Assembly (NCBI RefSeq): GCF_015709515.1
Contig: NZ_JADNQZ010000058.1
Coordinates: forward strand, 310,001-374,000
Source: Methylocystis sp. H62
Lineage (GTDB): Bacteria > Pseudomonadota > Alphaproteobacteria > Rhizobiales > Beijerinckiaceae
DNA: 64,000 nucleotides
Direction: 5' to 3'
Position numbers and translations under genes: made by a program. The notes beneath the pieces are model-generated. The model saw nothing but the letters and a program-made list of their open reading frames with translations. It was not told where the DNA came from and made no database searches. Every line of letters begins with the position of its first letter. Positions within the stretch are counted from its first letter, which is position 1. Of this stretch, positions 4,069-64,000 are shown in pieces.

Positions 4069-4210
4069 TGACATGATGCGCGCCCGCCGGGTTTTAAGGG
4101 CGGGCGCCGCGGGAGGCAAGCCGGTTCAAAAACTACGGCCGCCGGGGCTCCGACGGCCGTCGTGCGAACTTTCAAAAAACGCCTGCGACGCCAGGGCCTC
4201 GCGCGCTGAG

Positions 4211-4492
4211 CTACTTGGCTTTGTTGAGCGCGGCTTTCAGCGTCGCGCCGGGCTTGAAGCGGGCGCTCTTGGACGCGGGAATCTTGATTTCTTCGCCGGT
4301 CGCCGGATTGCGGCCTTTGCCGGCGGCGCGTTTCTTGACCGAAAAAGTGCCGAAGCCGACGAGGCGAACTTCGTCGCCCTTCTTGAGGGCCTTCGTGATG
4401 CCGTCGATGACGGCGTCGATGGCGGCGGCCGCCGCCGCTTTCGAGCTGTCCGTCTCGCTCGCGACGTGCTCAACGAGTTCCAATTTGTTCAT
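4211..4492 (-). CDS. hupB: DNA-binding protein HU
   Basis: Nucleoid protein of 93 residues that dimerises and bends DNA. It begins MNKLELVEHVA and contains the HU helical body, the GFGTFSVKKR segment and the DNA-binding beta arm RNPATGEEIKIPASKSARFKPG. The start at ATG 4492 is preceded by GAAGGAGAAGG, an excellent ribosome-binding site. It lies downstream of lon on the same strand; lon-hupB-tRNA-Val is a conserved arrangement. A separate promoter is likely because a terminator-like hairpin sits between lon and hupB. Confidence 0.97.
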   Translation of the reverse strand: MNKLELVEHVASETDSSKAAAAAAIDAVIDGITKALKKGDEVRLVGFGTFSVKKRAAGKGRNPATGEEIKIPASKSARFKPGATLKAALNKAK

Positions 4493-4707
4493 GGCTTTTC
4501 CTTCTCCTTCACTGCGAGCCGCCCGGCGTAAGAATGCGCGACCTCGAATCGGCGTTGCGCAGCGATGGCGAGTGTTGGTCGCGAATCGCAGGAAAAGCAA
4601 GGCTTACCGGCCGCCAAAGGCCAGGAATCGCTGGTTTTCCGGGGGAAATGGCGGCTCTGCCGCGAAATGCTCATACAATCTGGGGGATGCAGCGTGCATC
4701 AGCCGCC

Positions 4708-4745
4708 CAAAAGCAAAGAGCCCCGCTCTGGGGGAGCGGGGCTCT
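4708..4745 (-). terminator. Intrinsic terminator after lon
   Basis: An 11-bp inverted repeat (arms AGAGCCCCGCT at 4717-4727 and AGCGGGGCTCT at 4735-4745) with a 7-nt loop lies just beyond the lon stop codon. Read on the minus strand it is followed by TTGCTTTTGG, a modest U-run. Confidence 0.8.
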
Positions 4746-4768
4746 TGAGTGTGTTGTACGATCTGCGA

Positions 4769-7192
<2,424 letters not shown>

Positions 7193-7437
7193 TCTTTTTG
7201 TCCTGTCCTTGACGCGTCCCGCTAAAGCGGCGGCGCGAGACCGCAGGGCGATTTTTGGGTTTAGGCCGCGAATACGGTCGCCCGCCGATTTCGCGCCAAT
7301 TAAAGACCGCCGGCGGATGCGCCCGACGGCCCCGTTAACGCAAATGGTTACGCGAATAATTGATTCAAGGCGCTGCGGCGCCCAAGCTTAAACCGGCGCG
7401 CGGCGTCGCCGCCGCATAGCTGCTTCGTCTTCGCGCG

Positions 7438-8703
7438 TCAGGCGCTCGTGCCGCTCTTTTCGCTGCGTTCGGCGTAAATATAGAGCGGCCGGGCTTTGCC
7501 CTCGACGACTTCCGGTCCGATCACAACCTGTTCGACTCCCTCCAGACCTGGCAGATCGAACATCGTATCTAGCAAGATTCCTTCCATGATCGAGCGCAGG
7601 CCGCGCGCGCCGGTATGGCGTTCGATCGCCTTGCGCGCGACGGACGAAAGAGCGTCGTCCTGGAAGGTGAGCTCGACGTTTTCCATCTCGAAGAGTCGTT
7701 GATACTGCTTGACCAGCGCGTTCTTGGGCTCGGTGAGGATCCGCTTGAGCGCGTCCTCGTCGAGATCCTCGAGCGTCGCAATGACCGGGAGACGGCCGAC
7801 GAATTCGGGGATGAGCCCGAATTTCAGCAAGTCTTCCGGCTGCACTTGCCTAAAAATGTCGCCGGTGCGCCGTTCGTCGGGCGACTGCACGGTGGCGGCG
7901 AAGCCGATCGAGGTGTTGCGTCCGCGGGAGGAGATGATCTTTTCAAGCCCGGCGAAAGCGCCGCCACAGATGAACAGGATGTTCGTCGTGTCGACCTGCA
8001 GGAACTCCTGCTGCGGATGCTTGCGGCCGCCCTGGGGCGGCACGGAGGCGACGGTGCCTTCCATGATCTTCAACAGCGCCTGCTGCACGCCTTCGCCCGA
8101 AACGTCGCGGGTGATCGAAGGATTGTCGGACTTGCGCGAAATCTTGTCGATTTCGTCGACATAGACGATGCCGCGCTGGGCGCGCTCGACATTATAGTCC
8201 GACGCCTGCAGAAGCTTGAGAATGATGTTCTCGACATCCTCGCCGACGTAGCCCGCTTCGGTCAGGGTCGTGGCGTCGGCCATGGTGAACGGAACATCCA
8301 GGATGCGCGCCAGAGTCTGCGCCAGCATGGTCTTGCCCACGCCGGTCGGTCCGATCAGCAGAATGTTGGACTTCGCCAGCTCCACGTCGCCATGCTTGGT
8401 GGCATGGTTGAGGCGCTTGTAATGGTTGTGGACCGCCACCGAGAGAACGCGCTTGGCCTGGGACTGGCCGATGACATAGTCGTCCAGAACCTTACAAATT
8501 TCCCGCGGGGTAGGAATGCCGTCGCGCTGCTTGACCAGCGAGGATTTGTTCTCCTCGCGGATGATGTCCATGCACAGTTCGACGCATTCATCGCAGATGA
8601 ACACCGTCGGTCCGGCGATGAGCTTACGGACCTCGTGCTGGCTCTTGCCGCAAAAGGAGCAGTAAAGCGTGTTCTTGGAATCGCCGCCGCCGACCTTGCT
8701 CAT
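7438..8703 (-). CDS. clpX: ATP-dependent Clp protease ATP-binding subunit ClpX
   Basis: Hexameric AAA+ unfoldase, 421 residues, that recognises tagged substrates and feeds them to ClpP. An N-terminal zinc-binding domain is visible ([12 protein letters not shown]...[10 protein letters not shown]), then Walker A GPTGVGKT, Walker [10 protein letters not shown], and the GFAATV and [12 protein letters not shown] segments typical of ClpX. clpP, usually next door, is not present in this window: the upstream neighbour here is a phosphofructokinase. The start at ATG 8703 follows GGAGAG upstream. Confidence 0.98.
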
Positions 8704-8933
8704 ATTGCTCTCCTATCGGGCCGGCCTGCCGGGCGAATCGGCCCGAACACCTGTGTTACCGGCGCCAGACTAACAAAAAGTGGAAGCGGCTGGCGTGCCC
8801 GTTCCCATCCAGTTTCGGTCGTCAGCGACGAGCGCCCGAGAACCATGACTAGTTAGTGTATTTTACACGACGGCCAAATTGCAACCTTCGCCGGAAACTC
8901 TGTCGAAGCAAGAAAGGCGCCCTCGCCGGCAGC

Positions 8934-10154
8934 TCAGGCGGTAACGATCTTGGGAACTCGATTGAGCCGTAGCCGATAGGCGTCCGGCATGCCGCTTCCA
9001 AGCAAGGGGCGAAGATACATCCGGAAGGCGTCGGTGACGTCCGTGCCGCAGGGGCTAATGTATTCGTCCGGCATGACTTTTGTCTTTCCAGCGATCGCTT
9101 CAAGCGGCGTCAACTGATAATCGACCGAATAAAAGCCGGTCCGGTGGATCGTCACCGAGCCGTCGCGGTCGCCCCAAATGGCGTATTGCACGGCCTTTTC
9201 GCCGACCTCGCGCGCCTCGCGCTGGTCGACGTCGGAAACGCAACCGACGAAGCTCCTTTGCACATAGCCGAATGTATCGGCCCGCACCCGCTTGAATCCG
9301 AGCCTGTCCTTCACGAGGCGGGTGAGTTCGTCGGCCAGCGCGCCGCCGCCGAGATGGACATTGCCGTGATCGTCGCGCTCCACGGCCGTGGCGAGCTTTT
9401 CGGCGATGGGGGTATGGTTTTCGTCGCAGACGCCTTCTGACACCGCAACGACGCAGCGGCCGTATTTCGTCATCGTCGCCTTAACGTCGGCGAGGAATTT
9501 GTCGATGATGAAGGCGCGCTCAGGGATGTAGATGAGATGCGGGCCGTCGTCGGGGAATTTCTTGCCGAGCGCCGAGGCGGCGGTCAGAAAGCCCGCGTGC
9601 CGGCCCATGACGACGGCGATATATACGCCGGGGAGAGCCCAATTGTCGAGATTGGCGCCGGCGAACGCCTGCGCCACCCAGCGCGCCGCCGAGGGAAAGC
9701 CGGGCGTGTGGTCGTTGACCATCAGATCGTTGTCGATGGTTTTTGGAATGTGCACCGTCCGCAGCGGATAGCCGGCGCTTTGGGCTTCCTGCGAGACGAT
9801 GCGCACCGTGTCCGAGGAATCATTGCCGCCGATATAGAAAAAGCAGCCGACCCCATGCGCGCGCAGGACGCGGAAGATTTCCTGACAATATTTGAGATCC
9901 GGCTTGTCGCGCGTCGAGCCGAGCGCCGAAGACGGCGTGCAGGCGACGAGCTCGAGATTATGGGTCGTCTCCTGCGTGAGGTCGACGAAATCCTCGTTGA
10001 CGATGCCGCGAACGCCGTGGAAGGCGCCATAAACTCGCTCGACCTCGCGAAATTTGCGGGACTCCAGCACGGCCCCGACGAGCGACTGATTGATGACGGC
10101 GGTGGGGCCGCCGCCCTGAGCGACGAGCACTTTAGAAAAATCAATGGCGGTCAC
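8934..10154 (-). CDS. pfp: Pyrophosphate-dependent 6-phosphofructokinase
   Basis: Catalyses the reversible phosphorylation of fructose 6-phosphate with PPi as donor. The 406-residue protein has a PFK N-terminus (VAQGGGPTAVINQSL), GGNDS at 109-113 where ATP enzymes have GGDGS, and PKTIDND at 137-143 with the lysine that marks PPi-PFKs (ATP enzymes have PGTIDND). PPi-PFKs are known from methanotrophs, where they also act on sedoheptulose phosphates; whether this one does cannot be seen. It is not in an obvious operon: clpX follows after 230 bp. Confidence 0.88.
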   Translation of the reverse strand: MTAIDFSKVLVAQGGGPTAVINQSLVGAVLESRKFREVERVYGAFHGVRGIVNEDFVDLTQETTHNLELVACTPSSALGSTRDKPDLKYCQEIFRVLRAHGVGCFFYIGGNDSSDTVRIVSQEAQSAGYPLRTVHIPKTIDNDLMVNDHTPGFPSAARWVAQAFAGANLDNWALPGVYIAVVMGRHAGFLTAASALGKKFPDDGPHLIYIPERAFIIDKFLADVKATMTKYGRCVVAVSEGVCDENHTPIAEKLATAVERDDHGNVHLGGGALADELTRLVKDRLGFKRVRADTFGYVQRSFVGCVSDVDQREAREVGEKAVQYAIWGDRDGSVTIHRTGFYSVDYQLTPLEAIAGKTKVMPDEYISPCGTDVTDAFRMYLRPLLGSGMPDAYRLRLNRVPKIVTA

Positions 10155-10235
10155 GACAAGCTCCTGGAAACCCGCGGCGGCCGCTTTCTCGCGAACGCGA
10201 GACGGCGGCGCTCCAACCGCGCTGCGCTTATATTC

Positions 10236-61060: not shown

Positions 61061-62806
61061 TTACTCCTCGTCGTCCTTCTTGGCTTTCTTGGGCGTCTCT
61101 TCGCGGGCTTTGAGCGCCGCGCCAAGGATGTCGCCCAATGAAGCGCCGGAGTCGGCCGAGCCATATTGCGCGATGGCCTCCTTCTCTTCAGCGACTTCGA
61201 GCGCCTTGATCGAGACGGAGACCTTGCGGGCCTTGCGGTCGAACAGCGTCACGCGGGCGTCGACCTTCTCGCCGACGGCGAACCGTTCGGGGCGCTGGTC
61301 GGCGCGGTCGCGAGCGAGTTCGCTGCGCTTGATGAAGGTGGAGAGATCGGTGCCGGTGATCTTTACGTCGATGCCGGAATCCTTCACCTCGATCACCTCG
61401 CAGGTGATGACGAGGCCCTTTCTGAGCTCGGCGCCTTCTTCGGCGCTGACGGAAGCGAACGGATCGCCCGCAAGCTGCTTGACGCCCAGCGAGATGCGCT
61501 CCTTCTCCACGTCGACGTCGAGGACCTGGGCGTTGATCGTGTCGCCCTTTTTATACTCCTCGATGACCTGCTCGCCGGGACGGTTCCAGTCGAGATCCGA
61601 CAGATGGACCATGCCGTCCACGTCGCCGTCGAGCCCGATGAAGAGCCCGAACTCGGTCTTGTTCTTCACTTCGCCAGAGACGGTCGAGCCGATCGGATGC
61701 TTCTCGGCGAAGGCCTCCCACGGATTCTGCAGGCACTGCTTGAGGCCCAGCGAGATTCGGCGCTTGACCGGATCGACCTCGAGCACCTGAACGTCGACTT
61801 CCTGGCTCGTCGAGACGATCTTGCCGGGGTGGACGTTCTTTTTCGTCCAGCTCATTTCCGAGACATGGACGAGGCCTTCGATGCCAGGCTCCAGTTCGAC
61901 GAAAGCGCCGTAGTCGGTGATGTTGGTCACGCGGCCGTGGAATCTGGCGCTGATCGGATATTTCGCCTCGATGCCCTGCCAGGGATCCTCGAGGAGCTGC
62001 TTCATGCCGAGCGAGATGCGGTGCGTCTCGTGATTGATCTTGATGATCTTCACCTTGACGGTCTGACCGATGGTCAGCACCTCGGACGGATGATTGACGC
62101 GCCGCCATGCGATGTCGGTGACATGCAGCAGGCCGTCGATGCCGCCGAGATCCACGAAGGCGCCGTAGTCGGTGATATTCTTCACGACGCCGTCGATCAC
62201 CTGTCCCTCTTCGAGGTTGGCGACGATCTCGTGGCGCTGCTCGGCGCGGCTCTCTTCGAGCACGGTGCGACGCGAGACGACGATATTGCCGCGCCGGCGG
62301 TCCATCTTCAGGATGTGGAACGGCTGCGGCACGTTCATCAACGGGCCGACGTCGCGGATCGGTCGGATGTCGACCTGGCTGCGCGGCAGAAAGGCCACGG
62401 CGCCGTCGAGGTCGACGGTGAAGCCGCCCTTGACCTGATTGAAGATGACGCCCTCGACCTTTTCATTGGTCTCGAAGGCCTTTTCGAGCTTGACCCAGCT
62501 CTCTTCGCGGCGCGCCTTGTCGCGCGAAATGACGGCTTCGCCGAGCGCATTCTCGACGCGCTCCAGGTAGACTTCGACCTCTTCGCCTACTTGCGGGGCG
62601 GGGTCGCGGCCATAGCCGGTGAATTCCTTGATGGCGACGCGGCCCTCGGTCTTGAGGCCAATGTCGATGACGGCGACATCCTTTTCGATGGCGACGACGC
62701 GGCCCTTGATGACGGAACCTTCGAAGGCCTCGTTCTGGCCATAGCTTTCATCAAGCAGAGCGGCGAAATCTTCGCGCGTAGGCGCGCGATCGGTCGTGGC
62801 GGACAT
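61061..62806 (-). CDS. rpsA: 30S ribosomal protein S1
   Basis: Six-domain S1 of 581 residues that recruits mRNA to the 30S subunit. S1 repeats can be followed by their typical GAFVDL or GAFVEL and GLVH/GLLHVTD segments (e.g. KNITDYGAFVDLGGIDGL and TNITDYGAFVELEPGIEG). The C-terminus is an acidic/lysine-rich tail (KKAKKDDEE). ATG 62806 has AGGAG upstream. It ends at a strong terminator. Confidence 0.98.
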   Translation of the reverse strand: MSATTDRAPTREDFAALLDESYGQNEAFEGSVIKGRVVAIEKDVAVIDIGLKTEGRVAIKEFTGYGRDPAPQVGEEVEVYLERVENALGEAVISRDKARREESWVKLEKAFETNEKVEGVIFNQVKGGFTVDLDGAVAFLPRSQVDIRPIRDVGPLMNVPQPFHILKMDRRRGNIVVSRRTVLEESRAEQRHEIVANLEEGQVIDGVVKNITDYGAFVDLGGIDGLLHVTDIAWRRVNHPSEVLTIGQTVKVKIIKINHETHRISLGMKQLLEDPWQGIEAKYPISARFHGRVTNITDYGAFVELEPGIEGLVHVSEMSWTKKNVHPGKIVSTSQEVDVQVLEVDPVKRRISLGLKQCLQNPWEAFAEKHPIGSTVSGEVKNKTEFGLFIGLDGDVDGMVHLSDLDWNRPGEQVIEEYKKGDTINAQVLDVDVEKERISLGVKQLAGDPFASVSAEEGAELRKGLVITCEVIEVKDSGIDVKITGTDLSTFIKRSELARDRADQRPERFAVGEKVDARVTLFDRKARKVSVSIKALEVAEEKEAIAQYGSADSGASLGDILGAALKAREETPKKAKKDDEE

Positions 62807-63070
62807 ATGTTCTCCTGAGAGCCCAGAGAGGGCGGCGCCGGCAAGGGTTAGCGTTGCAGATCGGCTTTCGGTATCGGACGTCCCCCGCGGCTAAAACGCG
62901 AGGCTGGACGAAAAGTTCGCTAAGCGAACTGCCGGCGCGGCCCGATGTCGAAAACCAAAGCGAATGCCCCGGCTTGGTTACCGAGGCGGGGCCTATCTAC
63001 CAGCGGCGCGCCGCCGTCGCAAGCGCGCCAAAAAGAAAACAGTCGGCGCCGCCTGCCCAAAGTCATGATA

Positions 63071-63111
63071 TTGCACTGCAATAAGTTAACAATATACTGT
63101 TTTAATATAAT
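63071..63111 (+). promoter_or_regulatory. AT-rich candidate promoter
   Basis: TTGCAC (63071-63076) and TATACT (63093-63098) are spaced by 16 bp; a perfect TATAAT follows at 63106-63111. TTGCACTGCAA at 63071-63081 is itself an 11-bp palindrome that could be a regulator site. The island stands out strongly from the GC-rich surroundings. Confidence 0.45.
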
Positions 63112-63280
63112 AATCATAACTCAAAAAGGCTGATTTGTTGGCGAATTTCTCCCTAGCGGAATCGCAGCCGCACGCATAGTCTGCGCCGACTGCCAGGCTT
63201 CGGCGCGCCGCAGAACGTCAGCGGCGGCGAATTCGCCGATCGACAGGGGCGCCGGGACTTGGCCGAAGACCAGTGAACTT

Positions 63281-63308: not shown

Positions 63309-63352
63309 TCGACTTCCCGTCGTTGCGATAGGGATATAAAGAGGAGAAAGAG

Positions 63353-63583
63353 ATGAAGACGAATATTATTTCAGGTTCGGCTCTCGCCGCCGCCGCCGTC
63401 GCCCTTGCTCTGAGCGGCGCATCGGTTGCGCCCGCCTACGCGCATTCCGCGAAGTCGACCCACGCGAAGACTCATTGCGGCGCCAAGGGAAGCTGCCGCC
63501 ACATGGCCAAATGCCACCACAAGGCGCAGTGCCACCATCACAAGGGCCGCTGCAACATGAAGAGCCGCTGCCACAGCAAGTAA
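63353..63583 (+). CDS. Exported Cys/His-rich peptide, candidate RiPP metallophore precursor
   Basis: Peptide of 76 residues. Signal peptide 1-30 (cut after AYA), mature part about 46 residues with six cysteines (42, 48, 54, 60, 67, 73) spaced 6-6-6-7-6 and ten histidines, plus many lysines. AGGAG precedes the ATG. Ninety bases later a DUF692/MNIO enzyme begins, the family that modifies cysteines in methanobactin- and bufferin-type precursors. The sequence is not clearly DUF2282 and lacks the EGKCG repeats of other MNIO precursors. Without modification it could still bind copper or other soft metals. Confidence 0.75.
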   Translation: MKTNIISGSALAAAAVALALSGASVAPAYAHSAKSTHAKTHCGAKGSCRHMAKCHHKAQCHHHKGRCNMKSRCHSK

Positions 63584-63672
63584 TCGCCTTGTGCGGGGGC
63601 GGCGGCTACAGCCGTCCCCGCCACGCCGATGCGGCTCCGGCATGAGCGGCGATGCCTGAGAGGGAAGACGTC

Positions 63673-64000
63673 ATGGAAAAGCCCCCGCCGCTTGGCTACG
63701 GCTTGGGCCTGCGGCCGATCTATTATGAAGAGATCCTGTCGTCGCGCCCGCCGATCGACTGGTTCGAAATCATTTCTGAAAACTACATGCTCGCCGGCGG
63801 GCGGCCGCTGGCGATGCTGGATCGGATACGCGCCGATTATCCCGTCGTCATGCATGGCGTCTCGATGTCGCTCGCCTCAACCGATCCGCTCAATTTCGAC
63901 TATTTGCGGCAGTTGAAGGCGCTCGCTGAACGCATTCAGCCGGCATGGGTTTCAGATCACGTCGCCTGGACAGGCGTTCATGGCGTGACGCTCCACGATC
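63673..64000 (+). CDS. DUF692/MNIO family enzyme (BufB/MbnB-like), 3' end cut by window
   Basis: 109 residues visible of an expected ~280. The opening matches DUF692: GYGLGLRPIYYEEI, DWFEIISENYM, VVMHGVSMSLAS (metal-ligand His) and WVSDHVAW. MNIO enzymes use two or three iron ions to convert cysteine residues of a precursor into heterocycle/thioamide groups. The ATG at 63673 has GAGAGGGAAG upstream. Placed directly after the Cys/His-rich peptide gene, so that peptide is its likely substrate. Partner protein (BufC-like, DUF2063) would be expected next, outside the window. Confidence 0.9.
   Translation, partial: MEKPPPLGYGLGLRPIYYEEILSSRPPIDWFEIISENYMLAGGRPLAMLDRIRADYPVVMHGVSMSLASTDPLNFDYLRQLKALAERIQPAWVSDHVAWTGVHGVTLHD

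Follow-up and report, generated by a model that had tools for sequence, protein, structure and literature searches.

A conserved Cys/His-rich precursor in a bufferin-type operon of Methylocystis sp. H62 and its relation to BufA2

The described systems closest to the locus reported here are the bufferins Buf2 (BufA2; Buf_6/12Cys; NF050166) and Buf1 (DUF2282), the captophorins with EGKCG repeats (oxazolin, fontiphorin and bulbicupramide, kin of HvfABC) and methanobactin (MbnABC). As far as the accessible parts of these reports go, the product in published EGKCG captophorins is a 5-thiooxazole (PMC13097082, PMC12538549, PMC13419390), and 5-thiooxazole formation was suggested broadly for PME1-dependent MNIOs (PMC13097082). 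In the same partial sources, recognition through the signal sequence was suggested for HvfA (PMC13419390) and, as a preliminary finding, the signal sequence of Buf1 was part of BufBC recognition (PMC12452194). The available sections of the latter paper give the chemistry of Buf2 as undetermined, and describe hundreds of small open reading frames (ORFs) that bear a signal and 1–18 Cys, belong to no family and precede MNIO genes. The window analysed here is a stretch of 64,000 nucleotides of Methylocystis sp. H62 (contig NZ_JADNQZ010000058.1, positions 310,001 to 374,000), and the subject of this report is its gene at 63353..63583 (+ strand), which encodes a Cys/His-rich, BufA2-related precursor of 76 amino acids and may be among those family-less small ORFs. 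The precursor was not named in titles and abstract beginnings on MNIO peptides among the matches listed, and no paper combining MNIO, histidine-rich and precursor was found in the literature.

The gene was assigned from its translation, its relatives and the selection acting on it. The product starts with a Sec-type, BufA2-like signal sequence (63353..63442, + strand; residues 1–30; BufA2 signal profile), a probable leader for the MNIO/DUF2063 pair, followed by a mature core of 46 amino acids (63443..63580, + strand; residues 31–76). The original prediction of an exported peptide with such a core was confirmed by the translation, which gives six Cys and ten His. The signal was assessed by eye and by profile comparison; the hydrophobic N-terminus ends in AxA, and the cleavage site, between AYA and H, was placed by eye. 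The Cys residues occupy positions 42, 48, 54, 60, 67 and 73 of the precursor, in steps of 6, 6, 6, 7 and 6. A Shine-Dalgarno region (AAGAGGAGAAAGAG) is found at 63339..63352 (+ strand), and its AGAGGAG is kept in 10 aligned loci.

The MNIO gene expected shortly after the precursor has its ATG at 63673, 89 nt past the stop codon, with GAGAGGGAAG ahead of it. Its N-terminal part occupies 63673..64000 (+ strand), and in the contig stretch past the window (L006; window position = L006 position + 60999) the gene continues to L006:3519, equivalent to window position 64518. It overlaps by 4 bp a DUF2063 (PF09836) partner gene (L006:3516–4358), so that the rest of the enzyme and the partner foreseen beyond 64000 are both present. 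As in bufferin operons, a Cys-containing precursor with a Sec signal stands directly ahead of the MNIO gene, and together with the partner gene they form a bufABC-type operon flanked by rpsA and fae. The divergent rpsA-type gene (61061..62806, − strand), with six S1 domains, marks the orthologous locus in relatives, and fae, on the opposite strand, is the next gene after the DUF2063 gene.

The complete MNIO, 288 amino acids long if translation begins at the first ATG and 281 if it begins at 63673, scored 368.4 bits against PF05114 and 375.6 bits against the BufB model NF050167 (cut-off 310), in agreement with BufB membership. It was under the cut-offs of the HvfB (274.8 bits, cut-off 360), MbnB (TIGR04159; 80.4 bits, cut-off 325), ApyH and ChrH models. 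The partner, with 63.4 bits against PF09836 (cut-off 27.2), is DUF2063/RRE-like and a candidate for an RRE-type domain. The nearest solved MNIO relative by sequence was 3bww (E 1.2e-46). HvfB residues N175, D242 and H244, essential according to the accessible part of PMC13419390, align with the DVNN and VDTH motifs of the focal enzyme (N176/N177, D218 and H220), and the columns at least 98% identical among 120 aligned MNIO rows (focal row counted twice) include H61, H96, E141, D174, N177, H205, D218, H220 and E247. The conserved metal-site residues, whose absence would have told against an MNIO, are present in the complete enzyme. Among the matches listed, the closest named MNIOs (97–99%) came from Methylocystis silviterrae, M. 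suflitae, M. rosea and other Methylocystis/Methylocystaceae; the host is for this reason taken as a type II methanotroph (Methylocystis), which bears out the methanotroph host of the original prediction and is fitted by fae.

In what follows, "Cys/His type" denotes the precursor kind of 63353..63583 and "hybrid" a BufA2-like/His-rich precursor. A peptide search of 61 genomes (37 of the genus, the own one included, and 24 from other families of the order) gave full-length relatives (E ≤ 6e-29) in 21, all within the genus. Across the focal clade, 17 distinct coding sequences gave a ratio of nonsynonymous to synonymous differences (pN/pS) of 0.17 (pS 0.276, pN 0.046; plain proportions with multiple hits uncorrected, from non-independent sequence pairs), with 0.10 in the signal and 0.20 in the core; purifying selection thus acts on the precursor. 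The six Cys and the eight Lys were all invariant in these sequences, as were eight of the ten His, more than one codon being used in six of the eight invariant His columns. Because of the full-length relatives in the genus, the low pN/pS and the invariant Cys, Lys and His, the ORF is not a chance one; the precursor is a real, conserved, lineage-specific type inside a bufferin operon.

With Buf2 the locus shares the signal family, six Cys, the bufABC order, a BufB-type MNIO, a DUF2063 partner and an orthologous position in the genus. The core differs, since the CxGxNxCKG/CKGQGW pattern of BufA2 is absent from it. The Cys spacing of the Cys/His type is 5,5,5,6,5 (22/22 sequences), whereas BufA2 mostly has 5,5,6,5,12–13, and 9–12 core His stand against 0–3 in BufA2 (62 sequences). 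The EGKCG captophorins likewise have a Cys-rich precursor, MNIO and DUF2063, but the focal precursor lacks EGKCG repeats and its MNIO is under the HvfB cut-off. Buf1 has the bufABC order and a signal sequence in common with the locus; unlike Buf1, the focal precursor has no DUF2282 match, and genes for DoxX, a sigma factor or NrsF are missing directly beside it. Methanobactin, also an MNIO with a Cys peptide in a methanotroph, belongs to another MNIO model, has another partner and is represented by its own MbnB locus in the same genome. In PHROGs no match to the precursor was obtained at E ≤ 0.1.

An orthologous MNIO (E ≤ 1e-90) was present in 32 of 39 genus genomes; completeness was 64–81% in five of the seven genomes with no match and 98–99% in the other two. 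Directly before this MNIO the 32 genomes carry, by patterns of our own making, the Cys/His type (20 genomes), a hybrid plus the Cys/His type (2), a hybrid (6) or a canonical BufA2 (4). Hybrids start with C-x6-C-x5-CMTKxGVCKH, and six of the eight genus hybrids share the focal-like end CHHK..CHH.KGACNMK.KCH.K; the focal form aligns to the hybrid with an internal gap. In genome G024 the S1 and fae genes likewise enclose the operon, here made up of a canonical BufA2, MNIO and partner, and an additional small peptide gene and an ORF with no assignment lie on the S1 side; the precursor change therefore seems to have occurred in place. The best 80 named loci were kept. Of the 62 that lie outside Methylocystis (L134–L195), the pattern assigned BufA2 to 51 and "other" to 10, the latter being BufA2-like on inspection by eye, while L151 yielded no precursor. 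One of two named Methylosinus has BufA2 and the other a hybrid. Among cultured Methylocystis, M. rosea SV97 and M. silviterrae FS have the Cys/His type.

In a tree of 75 MNIOs, with an outgroup of five more distant MNIOs including the Buf1-locus enzyme of the own genome, the focal enzyme fell inside a 17-row clade, all of the Cys/His type (100/99). This clade is nested in 26 rows of Cys/His type and hybrids (96/86), and these in 36 rows (98/83), which add one Methylocystis hybrid, five other hybrids (one from a named Methylosinus, four from another genus of the family) and four Methylocystis BufA2 rows. The 36-row clade is itself nested within BufA2-associated enzymes. Signal sequences of 33 BufA2 (L135–L195) were made into a profile, and of 412 signal-like N-termini taken from 464 kb of own-genome sequence the focal one matched it best (E 3e-7), followed by a true BufA2 (E 3e-5) and a third sequence (0.0016). 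Mature cores were compared in a chosen set of two Cys/His-type precursors, five hybrids, four sister BufA2 and four other BufA2, with Cys fixed and the other residues shuffled in 1000 rounds. In the precursor sets behind the tree and the hhalign comparison given below, some start codons were set too far downstream, so that some signals are shortened; the cores are unaffected. The observed score was reached by 0/1000 shuffles for focal–hybrid cores (z 8.7) and by 1/1000 for hybrid–sister BufA2 cores (z 3.7), and the hybrids carry C-x5-CMTxK-x2-CK in register with sister BufA2. Common ancestry with BufA2 is strongly supported for signal, locus and enzyme. The original prediction had set the precursor apart from methanobactin, DUF2282 bufferin and EGKCG-repeat precursors; it is not unrelated to bufferins, however, as signal, locus, enzyme tree and hybrid tie it to BufA2.

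On the sequence evidence, the locus is probably a bufABC operon belonging to the Buf2 lineage. In a methanotroph lineage, the core of its precursor would have been remodelled to give a Cys/His-rich, metal-binding peptide, predicted to be modified by BufBC and exported. The BufA2-type signal would have been kept and would be read as leader by the MNIO/DUF2063 pair, a role that fits because the signal is conserved while the core is free to change. By analogy with published MNIO chemistry, the Cys are the likely targets of the MNIO, which would oxidize all six or only part of them, with 5-thiooxazoles as the most likely products. After Sec export and a presumed cut after AxA, thiooxazole/thiolate groups and His could bind metal in the periplasm, copper being the likeliest, as a buffer or store.

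Several results weigh against this reading. No Pfam or NCBIfam model, DUF2282 included, scored above its cut-off with the precursor, which gave 13.8 bits (cut-off 60) against the BufA2 model NF050166; three Cys/His-type relatives gave 8.9, 16.7 and 22.4 bits and two hybrids 18.0 bits and no match, while canonical members reached 86.7–94.9 bits in three cases and 97.3 in a fourth. The partner had only 21.9 bits against the HvfC model NF050145 (cut-off 142). Precursor labels change eight times on the tree (least possible 4, shuffle mean 34), and the four Methylocystis BufA2 rows sit between two hybrid groups, implying either reversion, a second independent origin, or exchange of genes, so that a one-way series is unsupported. 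The observed core score was reached by 124/1000 shuffles for hybrid–other BufA2, 212/1000 for focal–sister BufA2 and 968/1000 for focal–other BufA2, and hhalign of BufA2 and focal cores gave E 0.005 with probability 7; since the direct match is non-significant, the link between the focal and BufA2 cores runs via the hybrid only. Directly beside the operon (S1 gene, fae) neither DoxX nor a metal regulator was found, and GTAACC-N16-CGAA, which we take to be a SigF-like promoter motif, was not found within 350 bp upstream of it.

The non-significant direct similarity of the BufA2 and focal cores, the weak hybrid–other BufA2 match and the strong similarity of the signals would also be expected from a module swap, in which a BufA2 signal became fused to a Cys/His core from a different source and BufBC would act on an unrelated substrate; function would then be much alike and only the ancestry of the core would differ. 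This is unlikely in view of the hybrid motif in register with sister BufA2 (1/1000 shuffles) and the plain homology of hybrids to the focal core (0/1000). Alternatively, the peptide could be an unmodified periplasmic His/Cys metal binder, the adjacent enzyme pair serving in trans the two canonical BufA2 of the genome that have no MNIO directly after them. The genome does contain these two extra BufA2 genes, C58:10.5k (86.7 bits), with no MNIO near it, and that of L007 (97.3 bits), about 1.9 kb from the Buf1-locus MNIO, and only two of its four MNIOs pass the BufB cut-off, the other passing one grouping with the outgroup. However, one of the three precursor kinds stands just before the MNIO orthologue in 32/32 genomes that have it, and the signal, as likely leader, is more constrained than the core, which makes this explanation quite improbable. 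The focal pair may serve the two other BufA2 precursors in trans as well.

A copper-uptake chalkophore of the methanobactin kind, suggested by the methanotroph host and the MNIO gene, is highly improbable, given a separate MbnB in the genome with 445.7 bits against TIGR04159, far from the score of the focal enzyme, and given the DUF2063 partner and Sec-type signal. A decaying or non-functional operon can hardly be entertained: no supporting point was found, the precursor is under purifying selection, and none of the 40 genus MNIO matches listed contains an internal stop.

The GTAACC-N16-CGAA motif occurs three times in the genome, before the Buf1 precursor, before a BufA2 gene and in an unrelated region; with 10 occurrences of a reversed control pattern, the motif says little by itself, and its weight comes from where it stands. 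Its presence before other bufferin genes and absence from the focal operon argue against a simple copper-stress role. A less probable reading is a composite metallophore, in which Cys thiooxazoles and dense His clusters would form a multi-metal N/S array; in Methylocystis a stress bufferin would have become a peptide that stores copper or delivers it to the methane monooxygenase system, free of the SigF-type copper-stress control apparent at other bufferin genes of the genome. In Caulobacter, copper induces CCNA_02999–03001, an apparent Buf2 operon, under SigF control according to the part of PMC8224329 that was available, which speaks for copper. A find in the main text of the Methylosinus OB3b copper transcriptome (PMC12811070) gave no DUF692, DUF2063, DUF2282 or MbnB. 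In genome G034, where the locus has its BufA2 form, a single small gene separates it from a divergent PCuAC copper chaperone gene (L245, 8093–8845; 250 residues, 25 of them His), which was counted towards copper.

Elsewhere in the own genome, L007 (G000:C51:32000-46000) holds at 5539–10183 a Buf1 operon (DUF2282 precursor, BufB, DUF2063, DoxX) together with ECF sigma, NrsF and BufA2 genes. The Buf1 precursor (86.7 bits against DUF2282) and BufA2 genes flank the ECF sigma/NrsF pair, both with GTAACC-N16-CGAA upstream. The methanobactin locus lies at 5847–7025 of L009 (G000:C56:167000-180000) and includes MbnB; the ORF just before MbnB ends in what we take to be an MbnA-like sequence, MTIRIAKRITLNV...CGATCSATNG. 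In L008 (G000:C58:529000-542000), genes for COX15/CtaA, a TIGR04222 membrane protein with a Cys-rich C-terminus, an MNIO (238.8 bits against the BufB model, under the cut-off) and a protein with no Pfam match stand in a row at 4071–7509. The MNIOs of L008 and L009 are outside the tree sample.

Several non-coding elements were found around the precursor gene. A GC-rich hairpin between precursor and MNIO gene (63593..63621, + strand) is a possible processing or attenuation element; a long stem occurs at this position in 6/6 folded loci with differing sequences, at z values of −0.98 to −2.60, the focal one being only −0.98. A sigma-70-like promoter (TTAACA-17-AATAAT, 63086..63114, + strand) is one of two promoter-like sites, one per strand (shuffle mean 0.4). 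The gap between rpsA and the precursor also contains an operator-like perfect dyad, TATTGC-N3-GCAATA, with a varying centre (63069..63083), which is perfect in 13/17 focal-clade loci and differs by a single mismatch in the remaining four; no second perfect copy was found in the genome. It was set aside as operator of the precursor operon and may belong to rpsA, because versions with two mismatches lie far upstream in some hybrid loci.

For the wider distribution, a profile of Cys/His type and hybrids (A2) was used, with up to 14 candidates scored per genome in samples drawn from larger groups. It matched 5/397 genomes of the order sample, namely the own one (Cys/His type), G009 (hybrid) and three that are canonical BufA2 by eye, and 1/385 of the class sample, the own one. 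Five protein database matches were obtained with the peptide and 67 among 8000 scored candidates with the profile, some weak ones being canonical BufA2; the four A2 rows with a taxon shown were all Methylocystis or Methylocystaceae. Among 72,556 plasmid records there was no match. In several Methylocystis a small His/Lys-rich peptide gene with a similar signal and 2–3 Cys (CSAK or CGGKNGC) precedes BufA2, hybrid or Cys/His precursors (L245:7592-7852, L246:4964-5215, L247:5435-5656, L108:764-1096 and L132:2289-2600); these peptides are a possible further precursor family.

Precursors of this bufferin-related family are missed by profile-based annotation. The genus offers a natural core-swap series, with one locus, one orthologous enzyme pair and several precursor states, which makes it testable whether the pair reads the signal and accepts Cys cores of nearly every kind. 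Should the peptide indeed be modified and copper-binding, the cell would make at least two MNIO products, an uptake chalkophore and a periplasmic His-rich bufferin.
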